The translations under genes were made by a program, and so were the position numbers. 36,583 nucleotides of DNA from a virus, in IMG/VR virus record IMGVR_UViG_3300029258_000483, positions 1 to 36,583 of that record; one strand, 5' to 3'. How positions within the stretch are numbered: position 1 is the first letter of the stretch; each line of letters opens with the position of its first letter. Shown one piece after another: positions 7,911 to 15,921 of the stretch. The notes under the pieces were generated by a model, which ran no database searches, was not told where the DNA came from, and saw only the letters and a program-made list of their open reading frames with translations.

Positions 7911-9167
7911 ATGTCAATAACAATCTCTGATGTTAGTAATGCCTTAACAAAGGTAATAAGACCTTTCATTCAAGACAACTTCGATAAAAACACTATCTTA
8001 TTAGATAAGGTTAAAAGAAATGCTAGTGTTACTTTCATGAACGACAATTTTTATGCTCCTGTAAGATCTTCTAGACATGGTGGTATAACAAACTTAGCTA
8101 ATGATGGTAATACTTTGATAACTGGAAGTGCAGGTATATCACAAGCATCTATTGGAGTTAAAATCTTAACTGGTACTTTCGACATTAGTAAACTAGTAAT
8201 CGATGCAACCAAAACCTCCAAAGGTGCAGTGGAAAACCAACTGACCTTTCAGGCTCAAACTTTAGCAAACGATTTTGCAAAAGATGTCAACCAGCAACTT
8301 ATGGGTGATGGTATAGGAGCTGTTGGACAAGTCTCCGGATCTGTTTCAACAGGAACATTTACTGTAATCAATCCTGATTCTAATTTAGATGATGGTAGAT
8401 CCACCGATAACTACGGTGTAGTAAATGGAGATATTAGAGCAACCAAGTTTATAAGACCTGGACAAGTAATCGGAATCGGTACTGCAGGTGCTGACCTTGG
8501 TACTGTAACTTCTGTAACTACTGACGCAAGTGGAACAATCGGTACTGTTGTTGTAACTGGCGCACCAGCTATAGCAGCAAACGATACAATCTACAGAGTA
8601 GACGGTAGTGGACAAGGAGCAGGAACATCTTTTATCACTGGTATAAAAGCTGCTTTAGGAACTCAATCCTCTTACGCCGGCATAACTAGATCAAGTCAAG
8701 AAGACTGGACAGCACAAAGAAACGTAACTTCTGAAGCATTAACATTAAGTGCTATGGAAGACGTATACTTAGCTGCAAGAGAATACTCTCAAATGGGTGA
8801 TACTTATGTAATCTTAGCTAATAAGACTTTATATAAGAAATATGGAGACATATTAACCTCATTAAGAAGAACTGTTAACGAAACTGAGTTAATCAGTGGA
8901 TGGACAGGTCTAGAGTTCGCTGCAGGTGCAGGAAGAGTTGGTGTATTTTTAGATTATGATGTACCAGATGGTGCAGTATTAGTTCTAAACTTAGATACAT
9001 GGACAATCGCCCAAGTCTCAGACATGGACTGGTTAGATGATCCTCAAAGTGGTGCTTTAGTTAGAAGAAGAGACGCAATAACATACCAAGCTACTATGGC
9101 ATGGTTTATGAATCTTCTCTGCGTAGCTCCAGCTGCAAACGGAGTCCTATATCAAAAAACAGATTAA
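7911..9167 (+). CDS. Major capsid protein
   Basis: 418 residues, with GGTGAAAATTA just before the ATG. The N-terminus (ISDVSNALTKVIRPFIQDNFDKNTILLDKV), the segment ATKTSKGAVENQLTFQAQTLANDFAKDVNQQL, and the C-terminal DAITYQATMAWFMNLLCVAPAANGVLY match the layout of HK97-fold capsid proteins with an N-arm, spine helix and P/A-domains. The Gly/Thr-rich segment about 145-230 looks like an inserted surface domain. Codons here are more regular (for example more GTA and ATC, fewer rare codons) than in neighbours, as often seen in highly expressed genes. It follows the scaffold and is followed by an RNA hairpin. Confidence 0.85.
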   Translation: MSITISDVSNALTKVIRPFIQDNFDKNTILLDKVKRNASVTFMNDNFYAPVRSSRHGGITNLANDGNTLITGSAGISQASIGVKILTGTFDISKLVIDATKTSKGAVENQLTFQAQTLANDFAKDVNQQLMGDGIGAVGQVSGSVSTGTFTVINPDSNLDDGRSTDNYGVVNGDIRATKFIRPGQVIGIGTAGADLGTVTSVTTDASGTIGTVVVTGAPAIAANDTIYRVDGSGQGAGTSFITGIKAALGTQSSYAGITRSSQEDWTAQRNVTSEALTLSAMEDVYLAAREYSQMGDTYVILANKTLYKKYGDILTSLRRTVNETELISGWTGLEFAAGAGRVGVFLDYDVPDGAVLVLNLDTWTIAQVSDMDWLDDPQSGALVRRRDAITYQATMAWFMNLLCVAPAANGVLYQKTD

Positions 9168-9243: not shown

Positions 9244-9561
9244 ATGAATGAAAATACAAAAAGAGATTATCAAAAATATTATGTGGATAGTCCTAAGGAC
9301 TTTAGTCCTGCTAGGAACGCTTACATTATTAACAAAACTATAAAAGAGTACGAAGCTAAAAGAGCTGCAAAGTACAGAATGTTTAACGAAGCATTAAAAG
9401 AGAGAGCATCTGCTGTTGCAGATTATTTTAATCATCTAAATAGTGGTAAATCTACATCTATAGAGAAGTATTTTGGAAAAAAAGAACTTGCAAGATTAAG
9501 AGGAAGAGAAGTAATTAAAGAATTACAAAATGATTCAATGCTTAGTAAAATTATTAAATAA
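9244..9561 (+). CDS. Small helical protein of the head module
   Basis: 105 residues, mostly helical and basic (RAAKYRMFNEALKERASAVADYF, then KKELARLRGREVIKEL). AAAGAG lies just before the ATG. There is no membrane segment or recognisable motif. Sitting directly after the major capsid gene, it could be a head completion or connector component, but this is only from position. Confidence 0.7.
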   Translation: MNENTKRDYQKYYVDSPKDFSPARNAYIINKTIKEYEAKRAAKYRMFNEALKERASAVADYFNHLNSGKSTSIEKYFGKKELARLRGREVIKELQNDSMLSKIIK

Positions 9562-9577
9562 AGGAGGTGAGCAATAA

Positions 9578-10243
9578 ATGTCAGGACTAAAAGATAGATT
9601 TCCAGAATTTGCATTTGGAGGATACAGAGTATCACCAAATGAAATGGACAGATACGAAGTTTACAGCGTATCTAATCCATCAACATCATCTTCTTGGTTT
9701 GGAACAGCAGCAGCAGGAACAGCAGATCAAGCTGTAGCACTTGTTGTTACAAACAAACTAGCAGATTATCCTAGAAACTTAGCAGGAGCTGTGGCAGGAT
9801 CTTCTGATATGGGTGGTGTATGGGTTGTTAATGGTTACTCACAATTCGGTGAAGAAATCACAGATACCATAACAATCGGTACTGCAGCTAATGGCGGTAC
9901 AGTAGGAGGATCAAAGGTATTTGCTGAAGTTACTTCAGGTACATTTACATTTGATTCCGGTGCTATTGGTAACGGTACACCTACACTAGGTGTTGATACT
10001 ACAGGTACTTCAGTAGTATTTGGATTACCAGCTAAAATAGGTGCAGCAAGTGATGTTAAATCAATTACTTGGATTAATGGAACTGTTGCAACTGCTATAA
10101 ATGGAGGTACTATTGCAGCTTATGTAGATACAACAGAACATGGGTTTGCTGGTACTGAAAATGTTACAGCTTCTGACCGTTATCAAGTTTGGTTTAGACC
10201 AACTTATGACAATTCAGGACAAGATAACATGGCAAAGTGGTAA
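9578..10243 (+). CDS. Virion structural protein, possibly capsid decoration
   Basis: 221 residues, preceded by a very strong ribosome site (AAAGGAGGTGAG, 9560-9571). The protein is Gly/Thr/Ala-rich, with repeated short beta strands (VWVVNGYSQFGEEITDTITIG, then VFAEVTSGTFTFDSGAIGNG) and no charged coiled coil. Position after the capsid gene and predicted high expression suggest a head decoration or head-tail protein. It is the last gene before the attenuator-like element at 10281. Family not recognised. Confidence 0.72.
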   Translation: MSGLKDRFPEFAFGGYRVSPNEMDRYEVYSVSNPSTSSSWFGTAAAGTADQAVALVVTNKLADYPRNLAGAVAGSSDMGGVWVVNGYSQFGEEITDTITIGTAANGGTVGGSKVFAEVTSGTFTFDSGAIGNGTPTLGVDTTGTSVVFGLPAKIGAASDVKSITWINGTVATAINGGTIAAYVDTTEHGFAGTENVTASDRYQVWFRPTYDNSGQDNMAKW

Positions 10244-10280
10244 GATTTGTGATAAATTAAACACATTAATTTAGAACTAA

Positions 10281-10353
10281 TTCTGTCTAGCCAGGAAGAC
10301 AGAAAGCTCCTTTTCTATTTTCCTGGTAGATAGATAGGGAGCTTTTTGTTTTT
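10281..10353 (+). terminator. Terminator with interlocking upstream hairpin (attenuator-like)
   Basis: Three pairings are visible. Hairpin 1: TTCTGTCT (10281-10288) with AGACAGAA (10297-10304), loop AGCCAGGA. Hairpin 2: AAAGCTCC (10303-10310) with GGAGCTTT (10338-10345), followed by TTTTGTTTTT, a classic intrinsic terminator. The loop of hairpin 1 (CCAGGA, 10291-10296) is complementary to TCCTGG (10321-10326) in the loop of hairpin 2, so the two can form a kissing or alternative pairing. Hairpins 1 and 2 also share two bases. The FkbM start codon follows directly at 10354, and the only Shine-Dalgarno-like GGGAG (10337-10341) is inside the terminator stem. Confidence 0.78.
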
Positions 10354-10998
10354 ATGCAAGGAATATTTTTTAAAGAATTTAATAACTCATTTATACCTCA
10401 CATATTCCAAGAACTGTATATTGAAAGAATTTACGAACCATTCTTAAAAGGTAAAAAAGATTTAACTATATTTGATATCGGCGGAAACATCGGACTATTT
10501 AGTCATTACGCATACCCTCATGCAAAAAAGATTATCTGTATGGAACCATCAAAAGAGCATGTAGAAGTTATAAAGCACATGCTCGAATACAATAAGATGG
10601 ATGACAAGGTAGGAATAGTTAATGCCGCTTTATCATCTAGAAGTGAAAAAAAGACTTTTTATCATAATCAAAATAAGACCATGTACTCGTTACAAAAAGC
10701 AGTCAGTGATGGTTCTAAACCTGAAGAGGTAACAACAATGACCATGACTGACTTAATGCTTTTAACTAAAACTAACTATGTTGATTTTATGAAATTAGAT
10801 ATTGAAGGATCTGAATTTGATGTAATAAATAGTAAAGGTTTTGAAGCAGTTGCAGATAAAATAGGTTCTATGGTTGTAGAACTTCATGCATGGGCAGGTA
10901 GAAATCCATCACAAATAACTACAACATTAAGAGATTATGGTTTTGACGTCTGGCATATACCAGCACAAGCAACTTTATACGGAGCTAAGAGAAAGTGA
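10354..10998 (+). CDS. FkbM-family methyltransferase
   Basis: 214 residues with an AdoMet-binding fold: FDIGGNIGLFSHYAYPHAKK (motif I, about 40-59), CMEPSKEH (acidic residue of motif II, about 62-69), and FMKLDIEGSEFDVI (motif IV-like, about 142-155), the signature of FkbM O-methyltransferases. These often cap or modify sugars on glycans. It heads a run with a small membrane protein and two glycosyltransferases, so a role in modifying a virion-bound or host glycan is likely (inferred). The ATG comes immediately after the U tract of a terminator, so expression probably depends on read-through and unfolding of that structure. Confidence 0.9.
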   Translation: MQGIFFKEFNNSFIPHIFQELYIERIYEPFLKGKKDLTIFDIGGNIGLFSHYAYPHAKKIICMEPSKEHVEVIKHMLEYNKMDDKVGIVNAALSSRSEKKTFYHNQNKTMYSLQKAVSDGSKPEEVTTMTMTDLMLLTKTNYVDFMKLDIEGSEFDVINSKGFEAVADKIGSMVVELHAWAGRNPSQITTTLRDYGFDVWHIPAQATLYGAKRK

Positions 10999-11186
10999 AA
11001 GAATTTAGGTTATTCCTAAGACACTATGGCCCGCAATTAGTTTCTGTTGCAGCTACTTTTTTCTACATTCTGATTGGCATATTAATATCACTTATTATTA
11101 TTGCCATAATTGTAGGAGGTATTTATACAATGATTAAAATATTAGATATATTATTTTTTAAAATTTACGGGGAGGTTTATTCATGA
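10995..11186 (+). CDS. Small membrane protein in the glycosylation cluster
   Basis: 63 residues starting at GTG 10995, overlapping the FkbM stop by four bases. A basic N-terminus (KEFRLFLRHYG) is followed by a very hydrophobic stretch (about 16-58) with one long or two short membrane spans (FYILIGILISLIIIAIIVGGIY; MIKILDILFF). It overlaps the next gene by four bases. No family is recognised; it might anchor the neighbouring glycosyltransferases at the membrane. Confidence 0.7.
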   Translation: MKEFRLFLRHYGPQLVSVAATFFYILIGILISLIIIAIIVGGIYTMIKILDILFFKIYGEVYS

Positions 11187-11953
11187 ACGCATTATTTATT
11201 ATAGATGATAATAGAAACCGGGAACTTGCTAAAATGTTTCTAAACTCTATTAGAAAATTTCACACTGAAGAGGAATTAGTTGTTAAGATTATAGATCCTA
11301 ATGACTATGAAGAATTTAAAGCAGATACTTATTTCTACTATAAAGCTAAAGCATTAATTGCTAATAAGTTTTTAGATGAATACGAAACAGTAATTGTAGC
11401 TGACGCAGACCACATAATGACCGGAGATATTACGCATATTCTATCTTTAAAAGATTATGACGCTGGATGCGTTTTAAATTTTAATACTAAAGACGCTAAA
11501 GAATACGGCGCTGTAAGCGTTTGGGACATTGCTCCACAAGAATATCTAAACGCAGGATTTATTGCCTTTAGAAGTAAAGAATTTGCCTCTCACCTACTCC
11601 AATTATGTAACAGCAAACACTTTGATAACTACAGATACAAAGAACAGGACCTTCTAAACATAATGGCACACTATGGTAACTATAAAGTCAGAGTATTTGA
11701 TTTATATGATCCTGAATATAACTATTCTGCATTTCATGGACTTGTAAGTAAAGCATGGTGGAATATGATTATCATGCAAGAAGATAAGTTAGTTATAACT
11801 CCTAAAAATGTTCCAGCAGTTAGAAACAATGTAGAGGTTAAGCTTATACATTGGGCTGGCGGTAATACTAATAAAATGAACTACAAAATATATTTTACAG
11901 ATGAAGTTAGTAAAAGATTAGATTATCTAGTAAGTGAGGTAAAAAATGACTAA
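11183..11953 (+). CDS. Glycosyltransferase, GT8-like (GT-A fold)
   Basis: 256 residues, preceded by GGGGAGG. Motifs of retaining GT8-type enzymes are visible: VIVADADHIMTGDI (DxD metal-binding motif at about 73-75), YLNAGFIAFRS (about 112-122), EQDLLNI (about 151-157), and LIHWAGG near the C-terminus (about 227-233). It would use a nucleotide sugar to transfer a hexose onto a protein or glycan. Placed with FkbM and GT4-like genes inside the structural region, it probably decorates a virion protein; modification of host wall polymer is an alternative. Confidence 0.88.
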   Translation: MNALFIIDDNRNRELAKMFLNSIRKFHTEEELVVKIIDPNDYEEFKADTYFYYKAKALIANKFLDEYETVIVADADHIMTGDITHILSLKDYDAGCVLNFNTKDAKEYGAVSVWDIAPQEYLNAGFIAFRSKEFASHLLQLCNSKHFDNYRYKEQDLLNIMAHYGNYKVRVFDLYDPEYNYSAFHGLVSKAWWNMIIMQEDKLVITPKNVPAVRNNVEVKLIHWAGGNTNKMNYKIYFTDEVSKRLDYLVSEVKND

Positions 11954-13118
11954 AAAACTAAGAATAATGAATTCATCAAATGCTATATGGGCGCAGTCCG
12001 GTTATAGTATGCAAGCAGTACAATACGTTCCAGCAATGGCTAAAGCAGGTTATCCAACAGCTATGGTTAACTTTTATGGGCAAGAGGGCGGAGATTTCAT
12101 GTATAAAGGGGTTAAAATGTACTCAAAAATGAACTCAACATGGGGTGAAGATGCTGCATTACATCATGGATTAGACTTTAAAGCAGATGTAATACTAACA
12201 CTACAAGATATTTGGACACTTAATCCACAAATCTTATCAGATATGAGTAGAAAAGGTCTTAGATGGATACCAATCATACCTATTGACCATGAACCAGTGC
12301 CTCTACCTACTTATGACAGACTAAAACTTGCTTATAGAATAGTTACAATATCAGAATTTGGTTATGAAGAGCTAAAAAAAGTAGGAATGCATTCAACTTA
12401 TATACCTCACACTATAGAAACTGAACTTTTTAAGCCAATTTCTAGTCAGGAAAAGAAAGTTATTAGAAAAAAAGCAAACTTACCTGAAGATGCATTTTTA
12501 TTTGGAATGGTTGCAGCAAACAAAGACAATCCTCCAAGAAAATCATTCCAGGAAGTATTAGATGCTTTTAAAATGTTTCTACAAAAACATGAAAATGCTT
12601 ATATTTACTTCCACACTATACACAATCAACAAAATGGTTTTCAGATATTACAATACGCTAAGTTTATAGGCGTAGATTCTCACATAATTACATGTGATCC
12701 ACACGATTACTTATATAGAATAAAGCATGAAGACATGCCAAACATTTACAACTCTTTTGACTGCTTACTAGCTCCTTCTAGAAACGAAGGTTTTGGAGTA
12801 CCAATTATAGAAGCTCAAAGTTGCGGAGTACCTGTCATAACAACTAACTTTACTGCACAAAAAACACTCGTTAAAGATGGAGAAACAGGATATCTAGTAG
12901 ATATTGCTTACAAGCATTACTCAAATCTAGGCGCTTATGTAGGAATACCAAGCGTTCAAGACTTATATGAGAAAATGGAAGCTATCTATAAAGCAGATAG
13001 AAAAAAGATGGGTAAGGCAGCAAGAAAACACGTACAAGATAACTATGACTTTAATCTTGTATGGAGAACTAAGTGGTTACCATTCTTAGACAAACTAGAA
13101 AAAGAGATATACATTTGA
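11946..13118 (+). CDS. Glycosyltransferase, GT4-like (GT-B fold)
   Basis: 390 residues overlapping the previous gene by eight bases, with GAGGT upstream. The C-terminal half contains the nucleotide-sugar motif SRNEGFGVPIIEAQSCGVPVITTN (about 280-303), whose two Glu residues are typical of GT4 enzymes, and VKDGETGYLV. The N-terminal domain begins with the SGYSMQAVQYVPAMAKAGY acceptor-side segment. It is cytoplasmic, with no signal. It would extend or initiate a glycan together with the GT8-like enzyme. A strong promoter starts within its last codons. Confidence 0.92.
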   Translation: MTKKLRIMNSSNAIWAQSGYSMQAVQYVPAMAKAGYPTAMVNFYGQEGGDFMYKGVKMYSKMNSTWGEDAALHHGLDFKADVILTLQDIWTLNPQILSDMSRKGLRWIPIIPIDHEPVPLPTYDRLKLAYRIVTISEFGYEELKKVGMHSTYIPHTIETELFKPISSQEKKVIRKKANLPEDAFLFGMVAANKDNPPRKSFQEVLDAFKMFLQKHENAYIYFHTIHNQQNGFQILQYAKFIGVDSHIITCDPHDYLYRIKHEDMPNIYNSFDCLLAPSRNEGFGVPIIEAQSCGVPVITTNFTAQKTLVKDGETGYLVDIAYKHYSNLGAYVGIPSVQDLYEKMEAIYKADRKKMGKAARKHVQDNYDFNLVWRTKWLPFLDKLEKEIYI

Positions 13119-13665: not shown

Positions 13666-13683
13666 AAAACATATAACTATATG

Positions 13684-13720
13684 AAAAAGACTTCTAGTTT
13701 TTAGAAGTCTTTTTTGTTTT
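13684..13720 (+). terminator. Intrinsic terminator
   Basis: AAAAAGACTTCTA (13684-13696) pairs perfectly with TAGAAGTCTTTTT (13702-13714) around a 5-base loop, followed by T-rich TGTTTT. It ends the single-gene unit 13150-13665. The next -10 box starts at the last T of the U tract. Confidence 0.92.
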
Positions 13721-13731
13721 ATAATATAGAT
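13720..13731 (+). promoter_or_regulatory. -10 box for a leaderless start of the fibre operon
   Basis: A perfect TATAAT (13720-13725) lies six bases before ATG 13732 and overlaps the end of the preceding terminator. There is no ribosome-binding site and no good -35; the 17-base position reads GTTTTT. The spacing is identical to that at 13150, 23083, 30934 and 25518. Confidence 0.6.
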
Positions 13732-15921
13732 ATGAGTTTTCCTACAGGATGGACATCATCACAACTTAAAATAGACAATAGCAAAGTATCAGGAACATCT
13801 GATTTAACTGACTTTCCGGTACTTATAAATGACGTAGCACTTGGAACAACAGGTGTTGGTACTGCTATTTGGTCAAACTCTCAAGGGCAAGAAATAAACA
13901 CTAACAGGTTTTTAAACGATGCTAATTTACAAGGTTACTGGAGATTAAACGGTAATGCCAATGATACAAGTAGTAATGGTTATAATTTAACAAATAATAA
14001 TTCTGTTACCTACACAACTGGAAAATTTTCAGATGCTGGAAGTTTTAACGGTACTGATCAATATTTGTCTATATTAGATGCTTCAGCTCCTAATTTAGAA
14101 ATAACTCAAGATCAAACATGGTCTTGCTGGATTTACCCAGATGTAATGCCACAAAACGGTAAAAGAATAATGGGTAAAAGATTAAATGGTAAAAAATCTA
14201 TTTTATTTAGTTCTGCTGCGCCTAGATATGAATTAGCGGGGTTGTCTACTAACGAAAATGTAACTTCTACAATATCATTAACAGCAGGTAATTGGTATCA
14301 CATAGTAGGTGTTTATGATTCTACTAATACTAAATTAAAAATATTTGTTAATGGTATTAAAACAGAAGTAACTGCAAGTGGTAGCGCTACGGATACTAAC
14401 GATATTTTTTCTATAGGAGCAGAAGGATCTAATGGTCAATATTTTGATGGATTAATTGATGATGTTGCTATATTTAATAGAGCTTTAACTGACGCAGAAA
14501 TACAAGAAATATATCAAGGTGGTGCTGACATTAGAATTACAACAGACAGTGCAGGAACTAATTTAGTTGATCACGAAATAGTTACGTGGGATTCAACTAA
14601 CGAAAAAGGTGAAATATGGGCAAAACTAGGTACAGTACAAGCAACAGCAGATACAAGCTTTTATATATGGTATGACAATGGTACTGCTATAACTACAACT
14701 AATGGCACAGGTGTTTGGTCTAATGGGTTTCAAGCAGTTTATCATCTAAATAATGGAGGTGCTGCTGCACTAGATTCAACTTCTAATAACTATACTTTAA
14801 CATCTGGAACTAGCGTACCTACACAAGCAGATGGGCAAGTAGGAAGTGCTGTTGATTTTAATGGTTCTACACAATATATGTCCATTGCAGACGGTTCTGC
14901 TCCTAATTTAGAAATATCATCAGATCAAGCATGGAGTGCTTGGGTTTATCTAGATACTCTTCCAAGCACCTACGGATATAGAGTAATGCATAAAGCTAAA
15001 CTCTCTAATGCAGCTAACAGGCATGAGATGTATATAGATCACACTAATTCCGGAAAAGTTATATATTGGTTAGGAGGTTTGTCAACTAACGTAAATGTAA
15101 TAAGTACAGGTTCAGTTTCTGCATCCACTTGGACACATATTGCAGGTGTTTACGATTCTGCTAATAGTAAATTAAAAGTATTTATTAACGGTGTAAAAAC
15201 AGAAGTTACTGCAAGTGGTACGGTTGGAGATAGTAACGCAGACTTAATCATGGCTGCTTCAAGATTTGGAAGTGGTGATAGTATAGCTCAGTGGTTTGAC
15301 GGTAAAATAGATCAGGCATTTATAACTAATGATGCAAAAACAGATGAATGGATTGCTACTTATTACAACAATACACATGACCCTGCTACATTTATTTTAA
15401 CTGCAATAGACTACACAAGGGCAATATCCGATAACTTATCTATAACAGATGTAATATACAGAGAAGCAGATTTTAACAGAGAAAACACAGATAACTTAGC
15501 TATAGCAGATACAGTTATTAGAACATTTGATCAATCAATTACAATACAAGATAACATTGTAATAATAACAGACCAAGTTGTAACAACTGCAGTAAATATT
15601 ATAACAATTGCACAAGATATAGTAGGAATAGATGACACTATTTTTAGACAAGTAGATTACTCAAGAAATCCACAAGACACGATTACATTAGATGATATTA
15701 CAGATAGAAGCATTACATATAACAGAATATTAGATAATAGTGTTGGAATAACTGATACAATATTTTTTAGTAAATTTATTTATGCATCAGTTTTAGATAA
15801 CATAAGCATTGCTGATAGTGTTAATATTAAGTCAGTAACAAGTGATGTAGAGAATCCAATTATTAAGTTTATGCAGATTGATGAGATTAAACCAACAATC
15901 TATAATATAACAAATGGCTAG
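13732..15921 (+). CDS. Large fibre/adhesin with DUF2341 and two LamG domains
   Basis: 729 residues from ATG 13732; an upstream in-frame TTG is inside the terminator and ignored. Order: DUF2341-type start (LKIDNSKVSGTSDLTDFPVL), first LamG/concanavalin-like domain (about 55-255: GYWRLNG, WSCWIYP, WYHIVGVYD, FVNGIKTEVTASG), the remaining DUF2341 half (ADIRITTDSAGTNLVDHEI, then FYIWYDNG), a second LamG (about 330-545: WSAWVYL, HIAGVYD, FINGVKTEVTASG), then about 150 residues of short repeats DN-x-x-I-x-D. LamG domains bind sugars or proteins, so this is a candidate receptor-binding tail protein. The two LamG copies are similar even at DNA level, indicating duplication. Confidence 0.85.
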   Translation: MSFPTGWTSSQLKIDNSKVSGTSDLTDFPVLINDVALGTTGVGTAIWSNSQGQEINTNRFLNDANLQGYWRLNGNANDTSSNGYNLTNNNSVTYTTGKFSDAGSFNGTDQYLSILDASAPNLEITQDQTWSCWIYPDVMPQNGKRIMGKRLNGKKSILFSSAAPRYELAGLSTNENVTSTISLTAGNWYHIVGVYDSTNTKLKIFVNGIKTEVTASGSATDTNDIFSIGAEGSNGQYFDGLIDDVAIFNRALTDAEIQEIYQGGADIRITTDSAGTNLVDHEIVTWDSTNEKGEIWAKLGTVQATADTSFYIWYDNGTAITTTNGTGVWSNGFQAVYHLNNGGAAALDSTSNNYTLTSGTSVPTQADGQVGSAVDFNGSTQYMSIADGSAPNLEISSDQAWSAWVYLDTLPSTYGYRVMHKAKLSNAANRHEMYIDHTNSGKVIYWLGGLSTNVNVISTGSVSASTWTHIAGVYDSANSKLKVFINGVKTEVTASGTVGDSNADLIMAASRFGSGDSIAQWFDGKIDQAFITNDAKTDEWIATYYNNTHDPATFILTAIDYTRAISDNLSITDVIYREADFNRENTDNLAIADTVIRTFDQSITIQDNIVIITDQVVTTAVNIITIAQDIVGIDDTIFRQVDYSRNPQDTITLDDITDRSITYNRILDNSVGITDTIFFSKFIYASVLDNISIADSVNIKSVTSDVENPIIKFMQIDEIKPTIYNITNG

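Follow-up and report, generated by a model that had tools for sequence, protein, structure and literature searches.

What is the role of the structured stretch that separates the capsid genes of this phage from its glycosylation genes, and does it act on the expression of the genes that follow it? The window (that is, the whole stretch of DNA analyzed, 36,583 nt, IMG/VR record IMGVR_UViG_3300029258_000483) harbors this leader upstream of FkbM, at 10281-10353. The genes preceding it code for a DNA methylase, TerL, a P22-like portal and the major capsid protein (MCP, 7911-9167), and two small genes, starting at 9244 and 9578 (the stop of the latter being at 10243), lie between MCP and FkbM. The FkbM-family methyltransferase gene (10354-10998, plus strand; Pfam PF05050, E=2e-13; conserved N-terminus MQGIFF) is the first of an operon and is followed, on the same strand, by genes for a GT8-like (11183-11953, with a match under the Pfam cut-off) and a GT4-like glycosyltransferase (11946-13118), a gene order that is conserved in the relatives. 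The search for MCP relatives across 84,980 genomes, aimed at the host, gave none, and in annotated phages only distant relatives of MCP were found (about 23-25% identity), as was the case for FkbM.

The leader begins with hairpin 1, whose arms TTCTGTCT and AGACAGAA (10281-10288 and 10297-10304, plus strand) form the 8 bp reported in the first-pass annotation and enclose the loop AGCCAGGA. The complementarity between loops described there is exact: CCAGGA (10291-10296) is the perfect complement of TCCTGG (10321-10326), which is embedded in the loop TCCTGGT of a terminator-like hairpin (10306-10342) made up of GCTCCTT...AGGGAGC and an upper stem. An 11-nt U tract, TTTTTGTTTTT (10343-10353), abuts the FkbM start codon, and the ATG at 10354 does lie directly 3' of it, as had been noticed. 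The region 10306-10353, with its G+C-rich hairpin followed by a U run, has the sequence of a predicted intrinsic terminator. The two bases said to be shared by the hairpins turned out to be too small an estimate, in that hairpin 1 can give up most of its 3' arm to pairing with the U tract; this switch strand (10295-10304) provides the alternative fold. Indeed, the minimum-energy fold of the window leader is a single extended stem (10295-10312 paired with 10336-10353) that joins the U tract to the 3' arm of hairpin 1, and 11-13 contiguous pairs of this kind can form in six leaders. The folding energy of the region corresponds to z = -4.9 relative to shuffles, and the crossing-helix score is -41.6 versus a null mean of -20.8, with no shuffle reaching it (p = 0.005, the floor given 200 shuffles).

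Relatives were gathered through three proteins (FkbM, MCP and GT4) and through alignments, and a scanner for neighboring hairpins with complementary loops was run over both strands of 1.54 Mb. It returned 15 distinct strong places, 11 of which occupy one and the same position (plus strand, immediately ahead of the operon's first gene), while dinucleotide shuffles amounting to twice as much sequence gave two; the window itself scored 49, slightly below the strong-place cut-off. Hairpin 1 is also present in L009, L003, L010, L016, L018, L023, L007, L040, L132, L169, L170 and L176. The loop cores were different in all of the 16 leaders compared (for instance CCAGGA in the window, CCAAGG in L003, CCTGAGG in L010, CCTGGCG in L016, CTGCGA in L018, CCAAGAG in L007, CCGAGGA in L176 and CTCGTGA in L132). 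Pairing was counted leader by leader because MAFFT, applied to seven leaders, placed the 5' arm wrongly. In the 16 leaders each core pairs with its own partner over a mean of 7.6 bp, a figure that leans upward because the limits of the loops were set by eye, with the match in view, versus 3.3 bp with swapped partners, and none of 20,000 permutations matched the observed sum. The scanner and the crossing-helix test, both automated, are free of this bias. The latter takes the 85 nt upstream of a start, picks the two crossing helices that score best together and compares them with dinucleotide shuffles; it revealed a crossing (pseudoknot or kissing) helix at p<=0.01 in 25 of the 41 leaders at the operon position (23 of 41 on a repeat with controls). 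By the same method, control starts were positive in 1/36 cases for MCP, 0/41 for the 9578 family and 1/32 for GT4, and other genes preceded by a 60-nt gap in 10/167; a total of <= -30 with two strong helices was reached by 20 of the 41 leaders versus none of these genes with a 60-nt gap.

The covariance across related phages that had been suggested as a check is thus borne out, the loop complementarity being kept by compensatory change in 16 leaders with 16 cores. On the basis of these comparisons, a conserved and compensatorily changing loop-loop complementarity ahead of the FkbM/glycosyltransferase operon is supported. Since the relatives keep the pairing with wholly different letters, it is highly likely, as far as function can be predicted from sequence, that the leader is a genuine on/off element of the sugar-modification genes. 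The plus strand was the better folder in 13 out of 13 leaders of the window's type, which argues that the element acts as RNA; a function at the DNA level or on the minus strand was rejected on this ground. An exact pattern search of IMG/VR for the element gave no match.

A sigma70-like promoter sequence was detected upstream at p<=0.05 in 24 of the 41 leaders, L010 being the clear case (TTGTCA-17-TATAAT, then hairpin 1). Because a promoter lies just upstream in many relatives, we assign the element to the transcript of the FkbM/glycosyltransferase operon, as its 5' leader. In the window itself, the best promoter candidate is a weak extended -10 (TGA-TAAATT, 10253-10258, plus strand; p=0.17, not significant), with a predicted transcription start at about 10265. 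As for the mobility of the element, the window and L009 are unrelated over 9525-10268 and about 95% identical from 10268 onward, and this resumption of identity implies that the element travels with FkbM. The boundary of the exchange is 13 nt upstream of hairpin 1, and the gene at 9578 is replaced, in the otherwise near-identical phage L009, by an unrelated short stretch.

The reading that we favor, with a confidence slightly short of even, is that of a co-transcriptional attenuator in the 5' leader of the FkbM/glycosyltransferase operon, with predicted termination, read-through and kinetics. In the six closest leaders the upstream partner is 0-1 nt away from a stem of 15-22 bp, and RNA helix geometry should therefore prevent the loop-loop helix and the full stem from coexisting. 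The energies of the two states are comparable (-30 to -38 kcal/mol for the extended one versus -20 to -27 for the hairpins plus -12 to -17 for the kissing stack), pseudoknot energies leaving out loop penalties. The same logic has been published for the guanidine-IV riboswitch, whose kissing loop is sterically hindered when the terminator stem is lengthened (PMC11611296). During transcription of the phage leader, hairpin 1 would fold first, and its loop would catch the terminator loop before the 3' strand of the terminator emerges; the kissing complex would then hold the lower terminator open, and the polymerase would pass. Should the polymerase be slow on reaching the U tract, the extended stem, being more stable, would win, terminate transcription and cover the bases up to the ATG. 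The outcome would be set by folding kinetics, possibly tuned by some factor, and the same terminator-like hairpin might also end the read-through transcripts coming from the capsid operon. Paired A-tracts and U-tracts are common in ordinary bidirectional terminators, and this counts against an attenuator.

Of the first interpretation, which held up in part, the weak point is the idea that the terminator stem hides the ribosome site of FkbM. The GGGAG does belong to the stem (10338-10342), at a distance of 11 nt from the ATG, but the hiding role is unsupported, since a Shine-Dalgarno sequence is mostly absent in the relatives, where the median anti-SD energy is -2.4 kcal/mol for the first gene of the operon versus -7.5 for the MCP gene. 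The window, with -7.9 for its GGGAG, is an exception among them, and the G-runs of the stem are not conserved as Shine-Dalgarno sequences. A buried Shine-Dalgarno as the main point of the structure was, for this lack of conservation, rejected.

The organization of the leader is heterogeneous among the relatives. Two topologies prevail, one (that of the window) combining the loop with an upstream partner and a U tract, and the other with the partner at the ATG and without a U tract; leaders were assigned to types in part manually. In the former (type T: the window, L003, L007, L010, L016, L018, L023, L024, L028, L035, L040, L132, L169, L170 and L176), the loop of the ATG-proximal hairpin pairs upstream, mostly with a hairpin loop (kissing), and a U-rich tail precedes the ATG, although the U tract is weak in some members (e.g., TTCTGTT in L010). 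In the latter, with a 3' partner (type S: L004, L021, L022, L029, L039, L042 and L154), the hairpin loop pairs with bases directly before the ATG or overlapping it. T makes up a fraction of 0.66 of the last 10 nt upstream of the start in type T versus 0.23 in type S, and the distance from the -10 box to the ATG is mostly 60-92 nt versus 41-49 nt. For most type S leaders, transcription is predicted to begin at the 5' arm of the hairpin or within it. In L017, L020, L135 and L167 (type E) an extended stem reaches the ATG, and its 5' arm overlaps the -10 box (weak in L135) or the predicted start, so that only read-through RNA could form the stem, as with T4 gene e. Lastly, in type 0 a plain terminator is mostly followed by a promoter, and the ATG comes a few nt past the -10 box, the first genes of this type being apparently leaderless. 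In L011, L012, L015, L032, L037, L048, L049 and L149, about 5-10 nt separate a -10-like box from the start of the first gene past the capsid module. These leaderless-looking mRNAs occur in phages whose other genes often carry a strong Shine-Dalgarno. The next operon of the window (13681-13735) has the layout terminator, TATAAT, ATG (at about 13732), with 6 nt from the -10 box to the start codon; this gene also appears to be leaderless, the TTG start at 13714 is probably wrong, and L009 repeats the layout. A similar structure enclosing the start codon (UACCUAAG...CUUAGGUAUG) precedes a gene downstream of MCP in L035 (7290-7378).

On the FkbM tree the topology labels are mixed, and the 14 changes that are needed imply that the topologies interchange in evolution. 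Since pseudoknots of type S, without a U tract, and plain terminators occur at the same place, termination control cannot be the sole function. More tentatively than for the window, we suggest as a possible scenario a phage family of ligand-free, sequence-flexible pseudoknots (kissing, with a 5' or a 3' partner) lying between capsid and glycosylation operons, whose co-transcriptional folding might separate read-through from local RNA, and whose attenuator form would be new in phages.

Other explanations, to which different weights can be given, have to be compared with attenuation. The structure at the ATG might control translation, hiding the start codon in RNA read through from the capsid operon and leaving it exposed in local transcripts that start in or after the 5' arm. 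Such control of translation, or of transcript identity, is a serious rival because types S and 0 lack a U tract after the promoter, and it has a precedent in T4 (gene e, soc and I-TevI; PMC2988022); for the element as a whole we regard it as unlikely. The -10 box or the predicted start is within the 5' arm of the hiding stem in L017, L020, L167 and several 3'-partner leaders, and the predicted accessibility of the AUG is higher in the local than in the read-through transcript in type S (0.65 versus 0.43) and in type E (0.54 versus 0.21), even though longer RNAs pair more anyway and the L040 row of this comparison has no meaning, its start having been misplaced to a copy of the -10 string farther downstream. 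In types S and E the T4 precedent, by analogy, seems to fit better than attenuation. In the window's type, on the contrary, accessibility is the same in both transcripts (0.33 versus 0.30), so a T4-style discrimination was rejected there, and hairpin 1 of the window is wholly within the predicted local transcript.

An equally improbable explanation is that the element is simply the terminator of the capsid operon, the kissing loop doing no more than strengthening the hairpin or shielding the RNA 3'/5' end, and FkbM merely starting behind it. The strong hairpin with its U tract would suit this, as would the plain terminators found at the same junction in about one third of the relatives (L011, L012, L015, L019, L032 and others); yet the promoter is upstream of the hairpin in many relatives, the loop pairing is kept far past the need of any terminator, and a kissing helix cannot stack on the complete stem with a linker of 0-1 nt. 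That a small ligand stabilizes the kissing complex, as guanidine does in guanidine-IV, appears very unlikely: the architecture and the steric logic are those of that riboswitch (PMC11611296) and metabolic genes are located downstream, but across the leaders examined there are no invariant non-paired bases, no Rfam family matches, and several topologies occupy the same place. The least credible idea, to the point of being negligible, is a coincidence in an ordinary terminator region; a lone 6-bp loop match in one sequence is weak by itself, but the scanner, the crossing-helix test with its controls and the core-swap permutation all contradict it, and chance complementarity is refuted by the compensatory changes in the relatives.

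Concerning known systems, no Rfam family matched the window or its relatives at the gathering score, manA and wcaG included, in keeping with the earlier remark that no known riboswitch class is recognizable, and when six loci were searched by E-value, the sole outcome was a miRNA match due to chance. A limited literature search did not reveal such a phage element. The wcaG and manA motifs are likewise structured phage 5' UTRs ahead of sugar/exopolysaccharide genes, but in the parts of their description consulted a kissing-loop/terminator layout is not described for them (PMC2864571). The T4 I-TevI/e/soc hairpins share with our leaders a start-site structure within a longer transcript and, in some relatives, a local promoter overlapping the 5' arm (PMC2988022). 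A Shine-Dalgarno hidden in long transcripts only was not found in the window's type, where, in contrast to the T4 hairpins, the predicted local transcript includes the entire structure, a U tract is present and a Shine-Dalgarno is usually missing; types S and E agree in part with the T4 pattern. The HMP-PP (thiS) riboswitch resembles the leader in that its compact terminator can adopt another, pseudoknotted fold, by which the stem is disrupted close to the U run (PMC6478431). In thiS, however, there is a ligand and the loop letters are highly conserved, whereas the phage leader conserves complementarity only, its loop cores all differ, and FkbM and glycosyltransferases, not thiamin-synthesis genes, lie downstream. 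As in guanidine-IV (mepA), whose two hairpins kiss through the terminator loop and thereby sterically keep the terminator stem from completing (PMC11611296, PMC10907184), an upstream hairpin of the leader has a loop that kisses the loop of the terminator. Unlike guanidine-IV, the leader has no recognizable aptamer, family-model match (the Rfam copy used may be without a guanidine-IV model) or invariant bases, its loop letters are free to change, and it heads a phage glycosylation operon with the ATG a few nt past the hairpin. The freedom with which the partners change letters while keeping the pairing points to selection on a tertiary contact, not on a ligand pocket; a leader of about 75 nt may offer a compact natural system in which to test kinetic control of termination without a ligand, and a way into the timing with which a phage expresses genes modifying surface sugars. 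By analogy, then, the leader seems to resemble guanidine-IV in its logic, without being assigned to that family.
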